Both the position numbers and the translations under genes were made by a program. This document shows, piece after piece, positions 48,476-56,808 of a stretch of 64,000 nucleotides of DNA (positions are counted from its first letter, which is position 1; each line of letters begins with the position of its first letter). The stretch comes from Nitrospirota bacterium (lineage in GTDB: Bacteria > Nitrospirota > Nitrospiria > Nitrospirales > Nitrospiraceae): positions 1 through 64,000 of the forward strand of contig JBFLWP010000015.1 in NCBI GenBank assembly GCA_040757595.1, written 5' to 3'. The notes beneath the pieces were generated by a model. That model saw only the letters and a program-made list of their open reading frames with translations. It ran no database searches and was not told where the DNA came from.

Positions 48476-48802
48476 GTGGCAACCGAACGAAAGACGATCA
48501 GCCGGCACGTATTGACCACGGGGAAAGCAGGGCTCCTCTTGTGTGCGGGACTGTTGGCCGGCTGCGCCTCCTCCGGCGACCTGGAACAGATCCGCCAGGA
48601 GGCGAGGCAAGGGGAGAGCGCCTTGCGGGCCGACTTGATGAAGGAGCAGACACAGTTCTCCGCCTTGGCCAAGGAGAATGAAGCCTTGCGTGCCGCCCAT
48701 GCCAAGATTTCCCAGTCCGTCAAAGAATATTTAAAAGCGGAAGAAGCACGACACGTGGACGCCCTCAATCAAGTCCGGGCCGCCATGAAAAACCTTGAAT
48801 AG
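48476..48802 (+). CDS. Stalk-only lipoprotein (island lipoprotein 1)
   Basis: This 108-residue outer-membrane-type lipoprotein has the lipobox LLAGC (Cys30), then SSGDLEQIRQEARQG and a continuous coiled coil to the end. The same lipobox-plus-coil module begins the next two genes, which carry enzymatic domains. Here there is no cargo, making it Lpp-like. GTG 48476 has AAGGAGG upstream. It may pack with the others or act as spacer. Confidence 0.9.
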   Translation: MATERKTISRHVLTTGKAGLLLCAGLLAGCASSGDLEQIRQEARQGESALRADLMKEQTQFSALAKENEALRAAHAKISQSVKEYLKAEEARHVDALNQVRAAMKNLE

Positions 48803-48854
48803 AGAGTGGCGCATGGGGCGCGCACACTGACACGAACCGGGAGGGAGAGAGCCC

Positions 48855-51188
48855 ATGGCACGCACGACCGCAATGAACGGTTTCCTCTGGGCGGGAAGCG
48901 TCCTGCTCTCCGCGCTCGTGCTGTTGGCTGGCTGCGCCTCCTCCGGCGATGTGGAGCAGGCGCGGCGCGAGTCCGAGCAGGCGAAAGCCAAGATGCGCGC
49001 CGAACTCCAGCAGGAGCGTGCGCTTGCCTCTTCGATGGAAAAAGAAAGTGAAGCCCAAAAAGCTAAGGCGGAGAAGCTGGCGAAGGCCCTGGGGGGCGGC
49101 GCGTCGGATGGGAAGGCGCTGAGGGCGCCGACCGTCTGCCCGCCGAATACGAATCCCCATGCGCTCGCCATCCAGGTGGTCAATGACAGCGACCAGTCCG
49201 ACAGCGACGTCTATCTGCTCTTGACGGGCAAGGGCATTGGCTGGCCGACCGGTCCCCCTAACGGTCTTTCCTATCTGGATATCGGCAGCAACCCCACGGG
49301 ATCGGCGGCGGCCAAACCCGTGAGCAAGCTACCGGCGCTGGCCTGCACCGTGATCTCGCCCTACACCGGCCGCTCGCTCCAGGTGTATCAATTCTCGGTC
49401 GCGGCGATCAGCGGCGGGCGGCTCATGGTCTCCTATAAGACCCCGGTTGCCGTCTCCAACGGCAATTTCCCCACCGGCACCGAATCCTTCCGTTGGGACA
49501 AGATGGAGTTCGGCTATCCCGGGAGCGGCGCGGACCTGACCTCCATGGACTTCTTCGGGATCCCGATGCAGTTCGACTACCTGGACGGCGCCAACACCGT
49601 GCTGAACACCATGACCTATTACGCCTCGACGGGCACCATCCTGAACCAGCTTTACGGGCTCAGCCCCGCGATGGGCCAGGCCTTCCAGGCGATCGGCTCG
49701 ACGAAGACCGGCACCTGGACGCCGAGCCAGGGCCTCACGCAGTTTTCCCGCGTCATGGGCCCCTCCCTGCTGGCGTCCGCTTCGTCAAACGGCTCACCGG
49801 CCCCCTATCCCAGCTTCGGGCCTTACCTGACCACCCTGGTCGGACAGCCATTCACGGTCAGCGGAGCCGGGAATGCCGGGTGTCCCAACGCCGTCCCATA
49901 CACCTACTCGGCGAGCTTTGCCTCGGATGGGAAGGGCGGCTATGTCGTAACCTTGACGGGCGCGACGAATGGGACGCCCTGCGGAATCACACCCGGTCCC
50001 AATCCCCAAACCGTGACGCTCCCGCAGAATCTGACCGTCACGGTCAAGCTGCCGGCCCCTTCCAAGGATGCGGGATACGACGTCAACCTCTATGGCGCGC
50101 CGGCGACGGCCTTCTCAGTGCCGACCACTGGCATGACGTCGGCGCAGATCAGAGCCGTCCCCAACAGCCTCTATGCGGTGATCGCCGGGGATTTCATGGC
50201 CGGGATCAACTTCGGCTACGTGGGCAAAGGGAGCAACGCCCCGCAGAATAGCGCGAATTGGTACAGTAACCCGCCGATCCTCTACCCCTTCGGTGGCGCG
50301 CGGAAGAAAAACGACGGCCATTACAATGCCTATGCGGCGGTCTTTTACAACCTGTCGGATGCCTATGGGTTTGCCTACAGCGACCGCGGCGGACGGCCCA
50401 GCCCCTACGTGCCGCTGCCGAGCAACGTGCCCACGATGCGCATCACCATTCTGAACGACAACCGGTTGAACGCCCCGCAGGTCACCGTGTCGAATCCGAC
50501 CAGCTCCTCGCTGACGATTTCGTGGCCGGCCGTTAGCGGCGCGACGGGCTATACGGTCAACATAAGTTACGGTGGGGGTATTCCGGTCCCCGGAGTCACA
50601 CTCACCCCAGCCATGCCCAGTCCAAGTGGAACCACGATCTCAGGCCTGAGCCCCGGCACCACCTATCAAATCAGCGCCACCGCCACGGGCACAAACAATG
50701 ACCATGCCATTCAATCCTACGTTGTCCCTGTCTACGGGACAACGGCCGGCGCGCTCCCGTCTCTCACCGGCGGTTCCATCTCCTTCGGCACCGGCCTCAA
50801 TTGGTCCGTGGGCACATCCAAGACCCCGCCGTCGAACTACACCTTCGCCATCAATGGCTCCTCCTACACCGTGGGCGGCTCGCAGAACGCTGCGATCGCC
50901 GGCGCCCCGGGGATCAACGTCTACGGGCTCACCATCACTAACGGGACCAAGACCCTGTATCAGGGGAATTATGTCGTCAACCTGACCAGCGCCAGCGGAC
51001 AGTATTATGTCGAGAACGCCTTCCTGACCCCCCCCAACTCCAATCTCCTGACGACGGCCTGGAGCAAAGGAGGCGGAAACGGCTTCCCGGCCGGACCTTT
51101 TCCGAATAACGGCTCCCTCGTCATCGGCACCCCCTTCGCGCCGGTGGCGACCAAGCAAACCGCGCCGGTCGTCTTTCCAACACCGTGA
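48855..51188 (+). CDS. GH64-type beta-1,3-glucanase lipoprotein with FnIII domain (island lipoprotein 2)
   Basis: This 777-residue lipoprotein has lipobox LVLLAGC (Cys27) and a coiled stalk to about 85. The enzyme domain (about 95-480) shows the GH64 layout: IQVVNDSDQSDSDVYLLLTGKG, FRWDKMEFGYPG, TSMDFFGIPMQFDYLD, PYTYSASFASDGKGGYVVTL, SLYAVIAGDFMAGINFG. An FnIII-like domain (about 525-620, VTVSNPTSSSLTISWPAV) and a beta-rich tail follow. GH64 enzymes hydrolyse laminarin-type beta-1,3-glucan. ATG 48855 is standard. GC is visibly lower than flanks. Confidence 0.85.
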   Translation: MARTTAMNGFLWAGSVLLSALVLLAGCASSGDVEQARRESEQAKAKMRAELQQERALASSMEKESEAQKAKAEKLAKALGGGASDGKALRAPTVCPPNTNPHALAIQVVNDSDQSDSDVYLLLTGKGIGWPTGPPNGLSYLDIGSNPTGSAAAKPVSKLPALACTVISPYTGRSLQVYQFSVAAISGGRLMVSYKTPVAVSNGNFPTGTESFRWDKMEFGYPGSGADLTSMDFFGIPMQFDYLDGANTVLNTMTYYASTGTILNQLYGLSPAMGQAFQAIGSTKTGTWTPSQGLTQFSRVMGPSLLASASSNGSPAPYPSFGPYLTTLVGQPFTVSGAGNAGCPNAVPYTYSASFASDGKGGYVVTLTGATNGTPCGITPGPNPQTVTLPQNLTVTVKLPAPSKDAGYDVNLYGAPATAFSVPTTGMTSAQIRAVPNSLYAVIAGDFMAGINFGYVGKGSNAPQNSANWYSNPPILYPFGGARKKNDGHYNAYAAVFYNLSDAYGFAYSDRGGRPSPYVPLPSNVPTMRITILNDNRLNAPQVTVSNPTSSSLTISWPAVSGATGYTVNISYGGGIPVPGVTLTPAMPSPSGTTISGLSPGTTYQISATATGTNNDHAIQSYVVPVYGTTAGALPSLTGGSISFGTGLNWSVGTSKTPPSNYTFAINGSSYTVGGSQNAAIAGAPGINVYGLTITNGTKTLYQGNYVVNLTSASGQYYVENAFLTPPNSNLLTTAWSKGGGNGFPAGPFPNNGSLVIGTPFAPVATKQTAPVVFPTP

Positions 51189-51269
51189 ATGGAGATCCGC
51201 GCGGGATGTCGCGCGGGCGTGACACGTTCCAACAACGGAATGTCCATGACCAGCTTGAGGAGGACCGAC

Positions 51270-54200
51270 ATGTACGGCAGCCGGGGAGCAGGACGTGTCA
51301 CACTGATCGCCGTCGTCATGCTGGCCGGCTGCGCCACCTCCGGCGACGTGGAGCAGGTCCGGCAAGAGCGCGAGCAGGCGAGTGCCAAGATGCGCGCGGA
51401 GCTGGAGCAGGAGCGGACACTCGCCGCCTCGATGGAGAAGGAAAGCCAGGCCAAGCGGGCCGAGGCGGACAAGCTGGCCGCGGCTCTGGGAGGCGGGGCG
51501 GTCGCAGGCAGGCCCCTAGCAAAGGCTCCAGCCGCCGGGCAAGGTATGAGCCTGACCACGGCGCTGGCCACTTCGAGCTGCATACAAGCGATTCAGGCAC
51601 AGGGCCACAACCCCCCTGTGCCAAAAGCACTTTTTATCAACAGCGGTACGTCCTGCGGCAACGTCACGGTGAGCACCGCGGATACGACGGCGTTCACAGC
51701 CCAGACTCCCCTGATCCCTGTCGTCGTCGGAGCCGGCGGCACCCTGGCATTTCAGGATCCGGGCGCGGGCAATTCGACGACGCTCTATGCCAGCTCGTTT
51801 CTCATTCAGAACGCCGGGATCATGCAAGCCGGATCGGCGGCTAGTCCGATCCAAGGTCAAATCACCATCGTCATGGCCGGGAATCAATCGGCAGCCTTGG
51901 CCCCTACTGCCACAGGCTCTGCTGCGATCGTGAGCACCTCGAACACCACGCCCAACTCGCGCGATATCACCGTGATGGACGGGGGGGTGTTGCAACTGTA
52001 CGGGAGCAAGGGGCTGTCGGCGGCGCCAGGCACCATGAACAACGACATTGTGGGCGGCACGAAGAGTTGGACCTACCTGACCGCGCCGGCCGGTCCGGCG
52101 ACATATAACGATGCGGAAAACGTCAGCGCCCCCGTACCGGCGACCAATCCGGCTACCACCCTCACCCTGGCGACCACGGTGGACTGGCAGAAAAACGACT
52201 GGATCTCCGTCGCCACGACCAGCTTTTCATCCCATCAGACGGAGATCGTGCAGATTTGCGCGATCTCATCCGTCACCAACCCAGACCCACAGGCGTCTGC
52301 ACTGGGATTGCCCACCAGCGTGAGCCAGATCACCTTGTGTTCAACCACCCCACTCAAGCATTACCACTATGGTGGCCTGGCACCCACGCCGGGGTTCTTC
52401 CCGGCCAACACGACGCAGACGGTCGTGACCGGCGGTAAGCCGATCAACGTGAGCTATCAGGCGAAAAGCTTCTATGACGATCACACCCGCAACTACGGCA
52501 TTGACGAGCGGGCGGAAGTGGCTCTGCTGTCCCGGAACATCAAGCTGACCTCGGTGGCCGGCCAAACCACCGACGCCAACAATTTCATCGGTGGCCACTT
52601 GGTTGCGATGGTCACCAGCGCGACATACCCCACCCTCAAACTGGTAGGAGTGGAGATCGAAAAATTCGGGCAAGGGCTTACAGGACGGTACCCGGTTCAT
52701 CTGCACATGCTGCAACAACTACCCAGCGGGAACGTGCTGGTCCAGGATGTGAGTGTCCACCATAGTTACAACAAGTGTTATGTGCCCCACCAGACTCCCA
52801 ACGCCAAGTTCTATAACAATGTCTGCGTCCGCACGGTCGGCCAGGGGATGTACCTGGAAGACGGCAGCCATATCACTGGCAACCAGTTCATGCGGAACCA
52901 TATCGCCGGCACCATGACGGCCCAGACTACCTATTCCTATCCGCCGCAGCCGCCCAGCATCTACTGGGATGGGGATAATTTACAAAGCGCGCAGGCATCC
53001 AACAGCAACTGGTACAACGTCAAGAACATCCCGGACACCGCCCAATCCAATGCCAATGCGAATCCTCTGGACTCGACACACCCAGGTGGGTTCTGGATCA
53101 CCAACCTCGGCAACACCTTCGTCAACAATTCGGTGGCCGGGTGCCAGAGCTTAGGCCGAGGCTATTGGCTCTTGGCCCAGGGCACGGGAAGCACTAACTA
53201 CCCGGAATTCACAGGCAATCGCGTCCACGGATGTTACAACGGGATCGACAACGATGATGAGACGGGCAACACCCAGCAGCCCTACCCCATGTTGTCAAAC
53301 TCGTCACAATACGCTCCTGTGCTCGTGCTGACCGACAACACGATCACCCGTTCGCGCAATAAGGCAGCCTGGTTCCGAAACTGGTATGTCACTCTTCACA
53401 ATCATCGGTTTGCCACGAACCTGCGCGGGTTCTCGCTGCTAGTGGGTGGCGGGCCTGAAGGGACCTTCCCCGGCTTCTGGGGTCTCGTCTACCAAAACGT
53501 GATCGCCGGGATGACCAGGAATAACGTGGAGCGGTATCCGGTCTGTAAACTCGGTTCCGCGCCCGCCGCCACCACCTGGCAAACAGAATGTACCGATGTG
53601 CAATTATTGGGATCAGGCGCCACGTGGGGCAATTACCCGAGCTCCAATACGAACGTCCAGGGCTACAGTTATTATGATGGCCCGGCCAGGATCGAGCACA
53701 ACCGCTTCCTCAATTTCCGCTTCGATCCCACAGGCATTCATGCGACCGATCAGGCCGCCCGGTTGCTGACCAAGACCGACATTCAGAACATCGCCACCTA
53801 CGGAACGCAAGGCCAACTCGAGGGCCTTGTGACCCAGGCTGCAGCGAATGCCGCTCCGTCCTCGAACTACAAAGGCTATGTCGGCGACGTGGCCAACGGG
53901 TGGCAAACATCCAACGCGCAAACCGTTCCGCCGACGCAATATATCCGCGACAGCATTTGGGACAATGTGGACTTCAAGCACCAGGTCTATACGGAGGCGG
54001 TCAACATGGGCCCCTTCAACGACGGGGACAAGACGACCGTGATCCGCGATCTGGATAGTCAACTGAGCGGCCTGAGGGTCGTGGACGGCGGCGGCCATTC
54101 CGATCCCAATGTCGTGCCGATCTCGCTCAACAGCGTGGACTACTTTGCCACAGATTTCACCGTGGACGAGCCCCATTCGCGAGGCCCGAACGATTTCCGC

Positions 54201-55628
54201 TCAACCTCGCTCATGAGCCCGCACAAGTATGCCACGCTGAACATCGAATCGGTGAACAACCCGCCGTATGGCGGCACGGGAACGTGCCCAGCGAGCAATG
54301 CAGGTGCTAATTATATCCCCACGTGCTTTCGCGTGGTGGTTCAGCGGGACATGCCCGCCTACGGCGATACAGTCTTTCCGAGCCTGTTTCTGAATGGTCG
54401 CGGCCAATTACCGATCTATGAACCCTTTGTCATGGATCGGATGGGCTACGTGGTTTACGGGGCGCAAGGCACTGAAAACAATCCGCCGTATACTCTCACG
54501 GCCCTTCAGAATCAGCTTCTCTTCAGCTATACCGACCCGGGCGTGAAGAAGACGGGGGAGTTTTTCGTCAATCGCGTCGCGGTCTATCAACCGGTGACGA
54601 CGCCGGCCAACATCAAGGTCTATCGGATTCGCCGTCAGTGGGGAGGGCAACTCTACGGGAACTCGCCGTTGTCGTACCCGCCCAATTTCATTCCGCCGGG
54701 GGGCGCCGGCAATACCTGTGATGGCATATTCAGTCAAAACCAAAGCACGAAGGAGACGAAGTGGCAAGATTGTCTCAACCGCGCCAGGAACGTATCGCCG
54801 TATGCCGGTGGGATGACTATACCGGCAGCAATGGGTGCAACCCAGGCGGATCAATGGAAGAACTTTGAGGCGCCCTACAAGACCCTGATGGCAATCAAGA
54901 ACCCGCAGTCGTCCGACATAGCGACCTTCATCGCCAATCAGACTTTCTTCTACGACACCACCAGCGGCCTGCTGTACTTCTACATGATCGAGGATAAACC
55001 GGTGCAGAGCCAGTATTCCCCTTTTGGCACCTGCGATGCGGCCAATTACAATACCGGCAACAATTACGTCTCGCAAATACAGAAGATCAAGGCATTTAGC
55101 GATCCGAACAGCGTGCAAGCCGCCTTGGATGCTTCCTGCCTGGTCAGCGGCGGTGCACCCCATCACAATGACCTATTTGTGTGCAATGAAAACGGCTGCG
55201 CGGCCTATCTGGTCGATTTTTCCACGGCTGTCGTAACGACTCCTACCGTATTACCGTCCACACCGCCGCACCCCATATCCAGGACCGACTACAGCGCCTG
55301 GAACCAGTACCACCTCGTCTATGGCACACCAGCACAACAGCCCAACGGAGTGCCGGTCCCGGCCACAGCGCCGACTGACGGCACAGCCTTGCCCGCCTTC
55401 AAGGCACCGGTTGATGGAACGGCTCCCCCAACCGGAAACAACATTACCTATAACTTTTTGCCGCTATCGGGCGGACCGAATAATGGCGGTCCGTTCCCGG
55501 TCACGGAAAATTTCCGCTATCATTGCGTCATCACGCCGCCTTGGGCGCCGGTAAACGCCAGAGGCACCTATCCCGCCGGAGGGGGCACGAACTATCACCT
55601 CGCGCAGTTGGTTTGCCAGTCACCTTAG
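51270..55628 (+). CDS. Large G8/CEMIP-like parallel-beta-helix lipoprotein (island lipoprotein 3)
   Basis: This 1452-residue lipoprotein has lipobox VMLAGC (Cys21) and the shared coiled stalk to about 75. The rest is Asn/Thr/Gly-rich and matches the architecture of G8-domain/CEMIP (TMEM2) proteins: VMDGGVLQLYGSKGLS, DWISVATTSFSSHQTEIVQI, NYGIDERAEVALLSRNI, GGHLVAM, GVEIEKFGQGLTGRYPVHLHM, DVSVHHSYNKC. In animals these are hyaluronan depolymerases. It is much larger than its neighbours. ATG 51270 follows GAGGAGG with good spacing. Activity on any polysaccharide is inferred. Confidence 0.85.
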   Translation: MYGSRGAGRVTLIAVVMLAGCATSGDVEQVRQEREQASAKMRAELEQERTLAASMEKESQAKRAEADKLAAALGGGAVAGRPLAKAPAAGQGMSLTTALATSSCIQAIQAQGHNPPVPKALFINSGTSCGNVTVSTADTTAFTAQTPLIPVVVGAGGTLAFQDPGAGNSTTLYASSFLIQNAGIMQAGSAASPIQGQITIVMAGNQSAALAPTATGSAAIVSTSNTTPNSRDITVMDGGVLQLYGSKGLSAAPGTMNNDIVGGTKSWTYLTAPAGPATYNDAENVSAPVPATNPATTLTLATTVDWQKNDWISVATTSFSSHQTEIVQICAISSVTNPDPQASALGLPTSVSQITLCSTTPLKHYHYGGLAPTPGFFPANTTQTVVTGGKPINVSYQAKSFYDDHTRNYGIDERAEVALLSRNIKLTSVAGQTTDANNFIGGHLVAMVTSATYPTLKLVGVEIEKFGQGLTGRYPVHLHMLQQLPSGNVLVQDVSVHHSYNKCYVPHQTPNAKFYNNVCVRTVGQGMYLEDGSHITGNQFMRNHIAGTMTAQTTYSYPPQPPSIYWDGDNLQSAQASNSNWYNVKNIPDTAQSNANANPLDSTHPGGFWITNLGNTFVNNSVAGCQSLGRGYWLLAQGTGSTNYPEFTGNRVHGCYNGIDNDDETGNTQQPYPMLSNSSQYAPVLVLTDNTITRSRNKAAWFRNWYVTLHNHRFATNLRGFSLLVGGGPEGTFPGFWGLVYQNVIAGMTRNNVERYPVCKLGSAPAATTWQTECTDVQLLGSGATWGNYPSSNTNVQGYSYYDGPARIEHNRFLNFRFDPTGIHATDQAARLLTKTDIQNIATYGTQGQLEGLVTQAAANAAPSSNYKGYVGDVANGWQTSNAQTVPPTQYIRDSIWDNVDFKHQVYTEAVNMGPFNDGDKTTVIRDLDSQLSGLRVVDGGGHSDPNVVPISLNSVDYFATDFTVDEPHSRGPNDFRSTSLMSPHKYATLNIESVNNPPYGGTGTCPASNAGANYIPTCFRVVVQRDMPAYGDTVFPSLFLNGRGQLPIYEPFVMDRMGYVVYGAQGTENNPPYTLTALQNQLLFSYTDPGVKKTGEFFVNRVAVYQPVTTPANIKVYRIRRQWGGQLYGNSPLSYPPNFIPPGGAGNTCDGIFSQNQSTKETKWQDCLNRARNVSPYAGGMTIPAAMGATQADQWKNFEAPYKTLMAIKNPQSSDIATFIANQTFFYDTTSGLLYFYMIEDKPVQSQYSPFGTCDAANYNTGNNYVSQIQKIKAFSDPNSVQAALDASCLVSGGAPHHNDLFVCNENGCAAYLVDFSTAVVTTPTVLPSTPPHPISRTDYSAWNQYHLVYGTPAQQPNGVPVPATAPTDGTALPAFKAPVDGTAPPTGNNITYNFLPLSGGPNNGGPFPVTENFRYHCVITPPWAPVNARGTYPAGGGTNYHLAQLVCQSP

Positions 55629-55649: not shown

Positions 55650-56306
55650 ATGCAAGGTTACGAATGGATAAGACCTGCGGCTCTCGCCGGGCTGCTCTGC
55701 GCGGCGGCGGGTATTTCGGCGGTCCCCGTCCAGGCCGAGTGGTACGTGGGCGGCACGATCGGCGCGACCATCCCCAACGGCCTGACCGACACAACCGGCA
55801 CGGGACAGCAAGGCGGCACCTTGACCACCTTCACCCAGCAGACGACGCTCTCCTACGGGGGCAAGGTGGGCTATTTCTTCGAGAGCCACAAGTGGCTGGG
55901 CGTGGACATGGACGTCTCCAATTCGACGCCGCACATCAATCCCAAACAGACGGCGGTGACCGGTGGTACAGGCTTGGGTGCGAACGGCGGGCAGAATCTG
56001 CGCATGACGGTCTGGTCCACGAATCTGGTGGCCCGCTATCCGGGCGAGAGGTTTCGTCCCTACGTCGGCGGCGGGCTCGGCGTCTTTTTCGCCAATGCCG
56101 ACGGGGTCTCGTCATCGAACTGGACGCCGGGCGCCAACGCCTTCGGAGGGCTCAACATCCTGCTGATCGAGCACGTGTCCATGTCTCTCGAATACCGGTA
56201 CCACTATGCGCGCCTCAGCTTCGACAACGTGCTGGGACCGGGACGGGGCTTTGAAGCCAATTACTCCGCGAACACGCTGAACCTCGGGCTCAACTACCAC
56301 TTCTGA
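55650..56306 (+). CDS. Outer-membrane beta-barrel protein (OmpA/OprF-like, small barrel)
   Basis: This 218-residue protein has a signal peptide (ALAGLLCAAAGISAVPVQA) and alternating strands typical of an eight-stranded barrel (EWYVGGTIGATIP, YRYHYARLSFD, LNLGLNYHF with C-terminal Phe). SD AAGGAGG precedes ATG 55650. It follows the lipoprotein island by 22 bp and is likely co-expressed, perhaps a surface or assembly partner. Confidence 0.85.
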   Translation: MQGYEWIRPAALAGLLCAAAGISAVPVQAEWYVGGTIGATIPNGLTDTTGTGQQGGTLTTFTQQTTLSYGGKVGYFFESHKWLGVDMDVSNSTPHINPKQTAVTGGTGLGANGGQNLRMTVWSTNLVARYPGERFRPYVGGGLGVFFANADGVSSSNWTPGANAFGGLNILLIEHVSMSLEYRYHYARLSFDNVLGPGRGFEANYSANTLNLGLNYHF

Positions 56307-56331: not shown

Positions 56332-56808
56332 ATGACGACACCGACGCCGGTCTCTTTCACGCGACACATGACAGCCGCGCTGGTTTCCATCATGGGCCTG
56401 CTCCTGTTGCTGCAAGGCTGCGGCAGCAGCGACGAGGTGCAGATCAAGGGGGAGTACTGCCCGCTCCCGCCCAGCGTGGCGGATGAGGACCGGAATAACA
56501 TCAAGAAATTCAGCGCGGACGTCAGCGGGATTATCAAGTCGGTGGCCGGCATCAACGCCGCCGGGGACATTCAGGGCGCGCTGGAGAAGTATTATCCGGC
56601 CGCGCACGACGTGAACCGGGTCTACGCATTGAGCTACGCCGCCTGCGTAGCCTGCCGCCTCGACCCCACAGACGTGAAGGGCTGCGCCCAGCGGTTTGAC
56701 CAGATTATCAACGCGAACAATGCCAAGCGCGAGGAAAGCGCGCGGACGGCGGACGCCTACCGCAAGCAGGTGCTCGACCCGATTCAAGGCACGCCAGGGA
56801 CGAAGTAG
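56332..56808 (+). CDS. Small lipoprotein following the beta-barrel gene
   Basis: This 158-residue lipoprotein has lipobox LLLLQGC (about residue 30). The mature domain is helical (DRNNIKKFSADVSGIIKSVAGINAAGDIQGALEKYYPAAHDVNRVYALSYAACVACRLD shortened) with two close cysteines. ATG 56332 follows a purine-rich GGGGGACG. It ends the lipoprotein/barrel set. No recognised domain. Confidence 0.75.
   Translation: MTTPTPVSFTRHMTAALVSIMGLLLLLQGCGSSDEVQIKGEYCPLPPSVADEDRNNIKKFSADVSGIIKSVAGINAAGDIQGALEKYYPAAHDVNRVYALSYAACVACRLDPTDVKGCAQRFDQIINANNAKREESARTADAYRKQVLDPIQGTPGTK

Follow-up and report, generated by a model that had tools for sequence, protein, structure and literature searches.

One and the same lipoprotein stalk is clearly reused, as far as sequence can tell, on at least four unrelated enzyme-like proteins in a small set of Nitrospirota, most of these proteins being of carbohydrate-cutting kinds. 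We encountered it in a window of 64,000 nucleotides, the whole stretch of DNA analysed here, from a 3.37-Mb Nitrospirota genome. Our preferred reading, to which we give a probability of roughly 0.55, is that the stalk is a lineage-specific outer-membrane lipoprotein anchor that has spread by domain shuffling and presents carbohydrate-active enzymes on the envelope. Open-access literature searches returned no description of such a module.

Three consecutive genes on the forward strand share the stalk, each with a ribosome-binding site near its start codon. Gene 1 (48476-48802), which starts with GTG and has AAGGAGG upstream, encodes a small unfused stalk lipoprotein of 108 aa, in which an LLAGC lipobox leads into CASSGDLEQ and the C-terminus is helical and conserved. 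Gene 2 (48855-51188, 777 aa) joins the stalk (residues 27-82) to a GH64-like region (about 96-535), an FnIII domain (541-611) and a C-terminal beta region. Gene 3 (51270-55628, 1452 aa), whose ATG is preceded by GAGGAGG, joins the stalk (residues 21-76) to a G8 domain, a CEMIP beta-helix and a conserved C-terminal half. All three N-termini consist of a signal peptide, a lipobox ending in GC and the sequence CA[ST]SGD[LV]EQ. After the lipobox comes a block of ~55 charged, Ala-rich, helical residues, closed by the Gly-rich linker LA[KA]ALGGGA, beyond which genes 2 and 3 have no similarity. From the lipidated Cys onwards, the sequences read CASSGDLEQIRQEARQG in gene 1, CASSGDVEQARRESEQA in gene 2 and CATSGDVEQVRQEREQA in gene 3. 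The blocks of genes 2 and 3, counted from Cys to Gly linker, lie at 48933-49100 and 51330-51497 (matches to profile A5 of 6.9e-31 and 8.5e-31), and the diverged block of gene 1 lies at 48563-48718 (4.5e-9), all on the forward strand.

The earlier note on this DNA had described three neighbouring genes with a common lipobox and block, and the alignments bear this out. In shuffle tests on 75 residues counted from the Cys, genes 2 and 3 scored 225 against 42 ± 7 (z 27), and gene 1 reached a z of 16 with gene 2 and of 14 with gene 3. With the first 10 residues removed, the pair scores (181, 75 and 73) still exceeded the maxima of 2000 heptad-preserving shuffles (86, 65 and 58). As the three genes outscored all shuffles, the common block goes beyond generic coiled-coil likeness, and the objection foreseen in the earlier note, an alignment no better than that of random coiled coils, does not apply. 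Over the 55 residues of the block, identity between genes 2 and 3 is 75% in protein and 77% in DNA. By alignment, this pair is a true close duplicate, to which gene 1 is genuinely but remotely related (40% identity).

The stalk is narrowly distributed. In whole-genome searches, it was found in the window's genome (G000) and in G018, G030 and G038, which represent one other genus of the same family; a third genus has a decayed copy in G019. A profile search placed the block in 5 of 235 genomes of the order, counting the decayed copy of G019, and found no clear carrier among the others. An earlier stalk profile found it in 3 of 245 genomes sampled across the phylum. The block is thus lineage-specific among the genomes of the order and the phylum sample. 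A sixth candidate, G033, was discounted for its borderline match (0.0066), and G010 gave only weak matches, to a CpoB-like protein and a small helical lipoprotein. In G025, from the same family, a histidine acid phosphatase (L033:2816-4474, reverse strand; His_Phos_2 1.5e-22) begins with a similar lipobox and charged helix (CASTGAVEQVRQEAQ). Its leader is only weakly akin to the stalk (2.3e-4) and may represent a separate, or else a very ancient, instance of this design.

Downstream of gene 3, the beta-barrel and the further lipoprotein named in the earlier note are present. A small outer-membrane beta-barrel (OMP_b-brl, PF13505 8.7e-15) begins 21 nt past gene 3 (55650-56306, forward strand), followed by a lipoprotein with QGCGSSDEV and no stalk block (56332-56808, forward strand). 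The bare stalk, the two fused genes, the barrel and the lipoprotein run on one strand with intergenic gaps of 21-81 nt and probably form one operon. A barrel also lies beside the CEMIP gene in G018 and in G030, apparently the close relative Nitrospirota MAG REEB37 (JAGWTI010000031.1, locus L004), which in addition has a counterpart of the further lipoprotein (L004:7074-7595).

The cargo of gene 3, which had been read as a G8/CEMIP-like helix, is secure in its family membership by domain and sequence matches. G8 (2.4e-10, 40.8 bits) and CEMIP_beta-hel (2e-27, 96.8 bits) both exceed their cut-offs, and human TMEM2 (8c6i) is matched with an E-value of 2.8e-16. Gene 3 and TMEM2 have several motifs in common (GRYPVHLHM/GRYPVHFHL, VSVHHSYNKC/LSIHHSFSRC and YLEDG/FLEDG, respectively), and TMEM2 is a reported hyaluronidase (PMC10474455). 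Homologues of gene 3 are 61-77% identical to it. Those of Thalassospira and of the BD1-7 gammaproteobacterium (61-63%) have no stalk: the Thalassospira alkalitolerans protein has a plain Sec signal without a lipobox, and the BD1-7 protein has a short lipoprotein leader. An AlphaFold2 model of the cargo from five sequences reached a pLDDT of only 28.8. Six homologues (L005:8914-14580, L006:5581-10926, L007:9001-14253, L030:1044-6284, L026:4063-9744 and L028:6506-12007) carry extra modules of ~70 residues (ATNASPIVVTS..VTISGVxGNTAANGTWTVT..TFSLNGSTGNG; E1_FCCH up to 1.6e-16). These stand singly or in runs near window residues 342, 485, 572, 670, 769 and 1331 and at the C-terminus. Gene 3 itself has none, and since several insertion sites are common to different phyla, the window protein may have lost them.

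For gene 2, a GH64-type glucanase with FnIII had been proposed; the FnIII domain stands (1.6e-6), but GH64 stays below threshold and is a weak assignment. Residues 96-295 scanned alone match GH64 (PF16483) with an E-value of 0.002 and 17.9 bits, under the cut-off of 27, and whole-protein Pfam, PDB sequence and profile searches gave nothing above threshold for GH64 in this protein. A genome-wide family search (E 10) found no GH64 in the window's genome, nor were relatives of gene 2 found in viral and plasmid collections. The catalytic pair of GluY, Glu153/Asp169, is about 16 residues apart (PMC8394091). In gene 2, E218 and D232 (WDKMEF...MDFFGIP) are 14 apart and invariant in the one orthologue, and we infer from spacing and motif alone that they are a candidate catalytic pair. 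A single-sequence AlphaFold2 model of the cargo gave a pLDDT of 33.5. Relative to gene 2, the GH64-like protein of G018 (L026:9677-12496) contains two insertions of a second type of repeat (VTNPGSGYTSPPTVTITPP..AQGTATI..GSVTGVTVTNGG), which also occurs at the C-terminus of the L026 and L030 CEMIP proteins. The Thalassospira genome of L005, which has a CEMIP homologue, contains an FnIII stretch (L048, G328:C69:139519-139755) that shares 46% identity with the one in gene 2 and lies within a 1255-aa open frame.

With the relatives included, the number of fused cargo kinds rises from two to four, in three genera. We found nine full fused copies and four full small ones, each with Ala at +2 after an xGC lipobox. 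Orthologues of gene 1 in three relatives are 87-91% identical over 55 residues and lie directly 5' of fused genes. The gene order of G018 is that of the window (small stalk, stalk with GH64-like region and FnIII, stalk with G8/CEMIP, barrel), and its orthologue of gene 2 is 70% identical. The second slot is occupied in G038 by a protein of 430 aa that has IPT/TIG (3.6e-11) and a sub-threshold thaumatin-like match (PF00314, E-value of 0.0049). This protein is 72% identical to gene 2 over 68 residues, covering the end of the signal peptide and the stalk (E-value of 1e-26); the similarity ends at the linker, with nothing meaningful after it. The folds of GH64 and thaumatin-like proteins are related, so the second slot may hold one superfamily. 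The small gene of G030 directly precedes the CEMIP gene, and because this locus is split across contigs, a slot gene may sit on the missing piece.

The fourth cargo kind, a GH141-type beta-helix, is encoded by an unlinked stalk gene in G018 and G038. It matches BT_1002 (PDB 5mqp) with an E-value of 4.7e-55 and GH141_M (PF21231) with 33.1 bits, above the cut-off of 27; a GH141_M match was not found in the window's own genome. The G018 copy is intact, and that of G038 (L029:144-2702) has an in-frame TAG shortly past the stalk. In G019 (L032:4499-5216), an internal deletion has left ~24 stalk residues that run out of frame into the middle of a GH141 domain. The search of other genomes that the earlier note had suggested thus turned up thaumatin-like/TIG and GH141 domains behind the same block. 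The note's claim of polysaccharide-active cargo is well supported by homology for the CEMIP-like protein (8c6i) and the GH141 proteins of relatives (5mqp), and only weakly for GH64/thaumatin.

Borders, age, selection and lineage restriction are, like the reuse itself, read from the sequences. Paralogous stalks within a genome (GH/CEMIP and TLP/CEMIP) have a dS of 0.60-0.87, about equal to that of orthologous stalks between the two genera (0.6-0.9), and GH/TLP/CEMIP stalk pairs have a dN/dS of 0.13-0.32; all are rough estimates over 55 codons, and phylogenies built from such a short block have little resolution. The similar dS of paralogues and cross-genus orthologues suggests that the stalk was shared out before or near the genus split. 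The stalk has since been under purifying selection on different cargoes. Recent gene conversion is ruled out by the dS of 0.6-0.9 together with this constraint.

The GC content at 50-56 kb is 0.585-0.632, compared with 0.65-0.70 over nearly all of the remaining window. Together with the homologues of gene 3 in another phylum, this fits a transfer of the cargo and the addition of a resident stalk. The GH gene of the window (gene 2) lacks the GC3 contrast between a native-like stalk and an imported cargo that is seen in the CEMIP genes of the window, G030 and G038, so that by GC3 the picture of a native stalk on a foreign cargo is mixed.

By established rules, the Cys of a lipobox becomes diacylated, and in E. 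coli-like systems an Ala at +2 allows the Lol pathway to sort the protein to the outer membrane. All copies combine an xGC lipobox with the absence of Asp at +2, as expected of bacterial outer-membrane lipoproteins, and the inner-membrane retention signal that the earlier note had seen as a possible objection is thus missing. The sequences fit outer-membrane sorting of the stalk proteins under a rule that comes from E. coli and may not hold in Nitrospirota, and display of the cargo at the cell surface seems plausible. As an export route, type II secretion is unsupported: neither GspD nor GspG was found above cut-off in G000, G018 or G038, three of the four carriers. The carrier G030 and the non-carriers G015 and G002 each have GspG above cut-off and a strong GspD-like match (G030:C44, G015:C24 and C52, G002:C17). 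Canonical type II secretion genes are accordingly patchy in this family, G030 having them and its congeners G018 and G038 yielding none. The window's genome has one secretin near a PEP-CTERM-type ATPase and another beside a PilM-like gene (C1), which we take as PilQ from the PilM-like protein and the gene order. Slam is a 14-strand barrel with TPR; the adjacent barrel at 55650 is a 218-aa OMP_b-brl protein and is not Slam-like. The Bacteroidota lipoprotein export signal (LES) is an acidic signal right after the Cys; in CA[ST]SGD[LV]E, acidic residues occur at +6 and +8 only.

The anchor reading has several rivals. Genes 2 and 3 are adjacent and their block is 77% identical in DNA, as would be expected if the similarity were a by-product of recent duplication, in which a neighbour's N-terminus was captured as a generic lipoprotein leader without further role. 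We regard this as highly improbable, because the synonymous divergence of the paralogues equals that between genera, the block is under purifying selection (dN/dS well below 1) and the GH141 copies are unlinked. The joint assembly as mixed coils proposed in the earlier note has also lost ground. Here, unfused and fused stalks would co-oligomerise into a heteromeric Lpp-like scaffold carrying several enzymes, and the small gene retained beside the fused genes would make sense. Bulky hydrophobics do show heptad-range periodicity (P 0.002-0.03 in the fused stalks, <0.001 in the small one), and the Lpp/OprI family NF040598 is weakly matched (16.9, 25.2 and 21.4 bits for genes 1-3, 1.8e-5 at best, below the cut-off of 43). 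However, the periodicity of the fused stalks is not significant with Ala included (P 0.2-0.7) or on the Eisenberg scale, unlike that of an Lpp control, which was significant in every version (<0.001 with Ala included). The best a/d register of the fused stalks (V V R A M E E L M E K E L A) is half polar or charged, and small and fused stalks are just 27-42% identical. Of the coiled coil rich in Glu/Gln/Ala that had been described, the composition thus stands and the heptad pattern is weak, and we think mixed coils unlikely.

The export step is a gap in the anchor reading, so that a periplasm-facing location of the cargo stays a serious rival, as does a role of the block as a recognition tag. 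Facing the periplasm is the default fate of Lol-sorted lipoproteins and would agree with the missing GspD/GspG in three of four carriers. Against it speak the ordinary Sec signal, without a lipobox, of the Thalassospira CEMIP relative, and the large, FnIII- or TIG-bearing cargo of extracellular enzyme kinds, although neither fixes the topology; we hold this location to be possible but doubtful. A comparable, tentative standing is given to the block being a tag instead of a spacer, that is, an N-terminal signal for sorting or assembly that a partner such as the barrel at 55650 or another translocator would recognise, with C-terminal sorting tags and the Bacteroidota lipoprotein export signal as analogues. 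Whatever the cargo, the block is conserved beyond the needs of a spacer (over the four cargo kinds, 24 of its 56 columns are invariant; dN/dS 0.11-0.35), and the barrel and lipoprotein genes are kept beside the cluster. Then again, the GH141 copies sit away from the barrel, so small a barrel is not known as a translocator, and the whole helix is conserved, not just its Cys-proximal part. Somewhat more speculative still is a dedicated N-terminal tag for both surface sorting and assembly, with its own export partner independent of type II secretion in these Nitrospirota, serving as a plug-in by which imported glycan enzymes would be mounted on the cell surface.

Under the anchor reading, the module would comprise a signal peptide and lipobox, a charged amphipathic helix of ~50 residues and a Gly-rich hinge, and would have been duplicated and then shuffled onto different extracytoplasmic enzymes. 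We infer lipidation, outer-membrane location, outward display and the enzyme activities as follows. The Cys would be lipidated and the +2 Ala would direct the protein to the outer membrane by the Lol rule; the helix, about 7.5 nm if fully helical, would space the enzyme a few nanometres off the membrane; and the linker would act as a hinge, with the enzymes facing outwards. The window locus would then supply the stalk on its own, a GH64/thaumatin-type protein probably active on beta-glucan, a glycan-active beta-helix of G8/CEMIP type, a small barrel and a lipoprotein. In relatives, the second cargo is swapped and a GH141 enzyme added elsewhere.

In a phylum with little-studied surface proteins, the stalk is a naturally occurring anchor module that has defined borders and is interchangeable between several cargoes. 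Should the cargo prove to be displayed, the module would provide a handle on how lipoproteins cross the outer membrane of these bacteria when canonical type II secretion is lacking, as well as a ready-made display stalk. The CEMIP/TMEM2-type protein, which has hyaluronan-degrading animal relatives, also becomes available in a bacterium, where its substrate is open to testing.

Each part of the system has known counterparts. Gene 3 shares G8, the beta-helix, GRYPVH[LF]H and [VL]S[VI]HHS with the CEMIP/TMEM2 family but is bacterial, about 1450 aa long and has a long conserved C-terminal half. The GH141 protein of G018 and G038 resembles BT_1002 (5mqp) in its beta-helix and GH141 insertion domain and differs in being fused to the stalk. 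Like Lpp/OprI alanine-zipper lipoproteins, the stalk has an Ala-rich helix right after the lipidated Cys of a short lipoprotein; its match to them is sub-threshold, its heptads are weaker and its helix runs on into large cargo, and the small stalk protein differs further in having no C-terminal Lys/Arg. If display holds, the system would be akin to PulA, a substrate of type II secretion, and to Bacteroidota glycan-utilisation lipoproteins, where carbohydrate enzymes are lipid-anchored on the envelope. It differs from these in placing one helical block on unrelated cargoes, with no clear LES consensus and, unlike PulA-type systems, with canonical GspD/GspG missing from three of the four carriers. 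With MYXO-CTERM, PEP-CTERM and GlyGly-CTERM, the stalk shares the principle of one tag for many cargoes, although it is N-terminal, lipobox-based and carried by just two to four proteins per genome.
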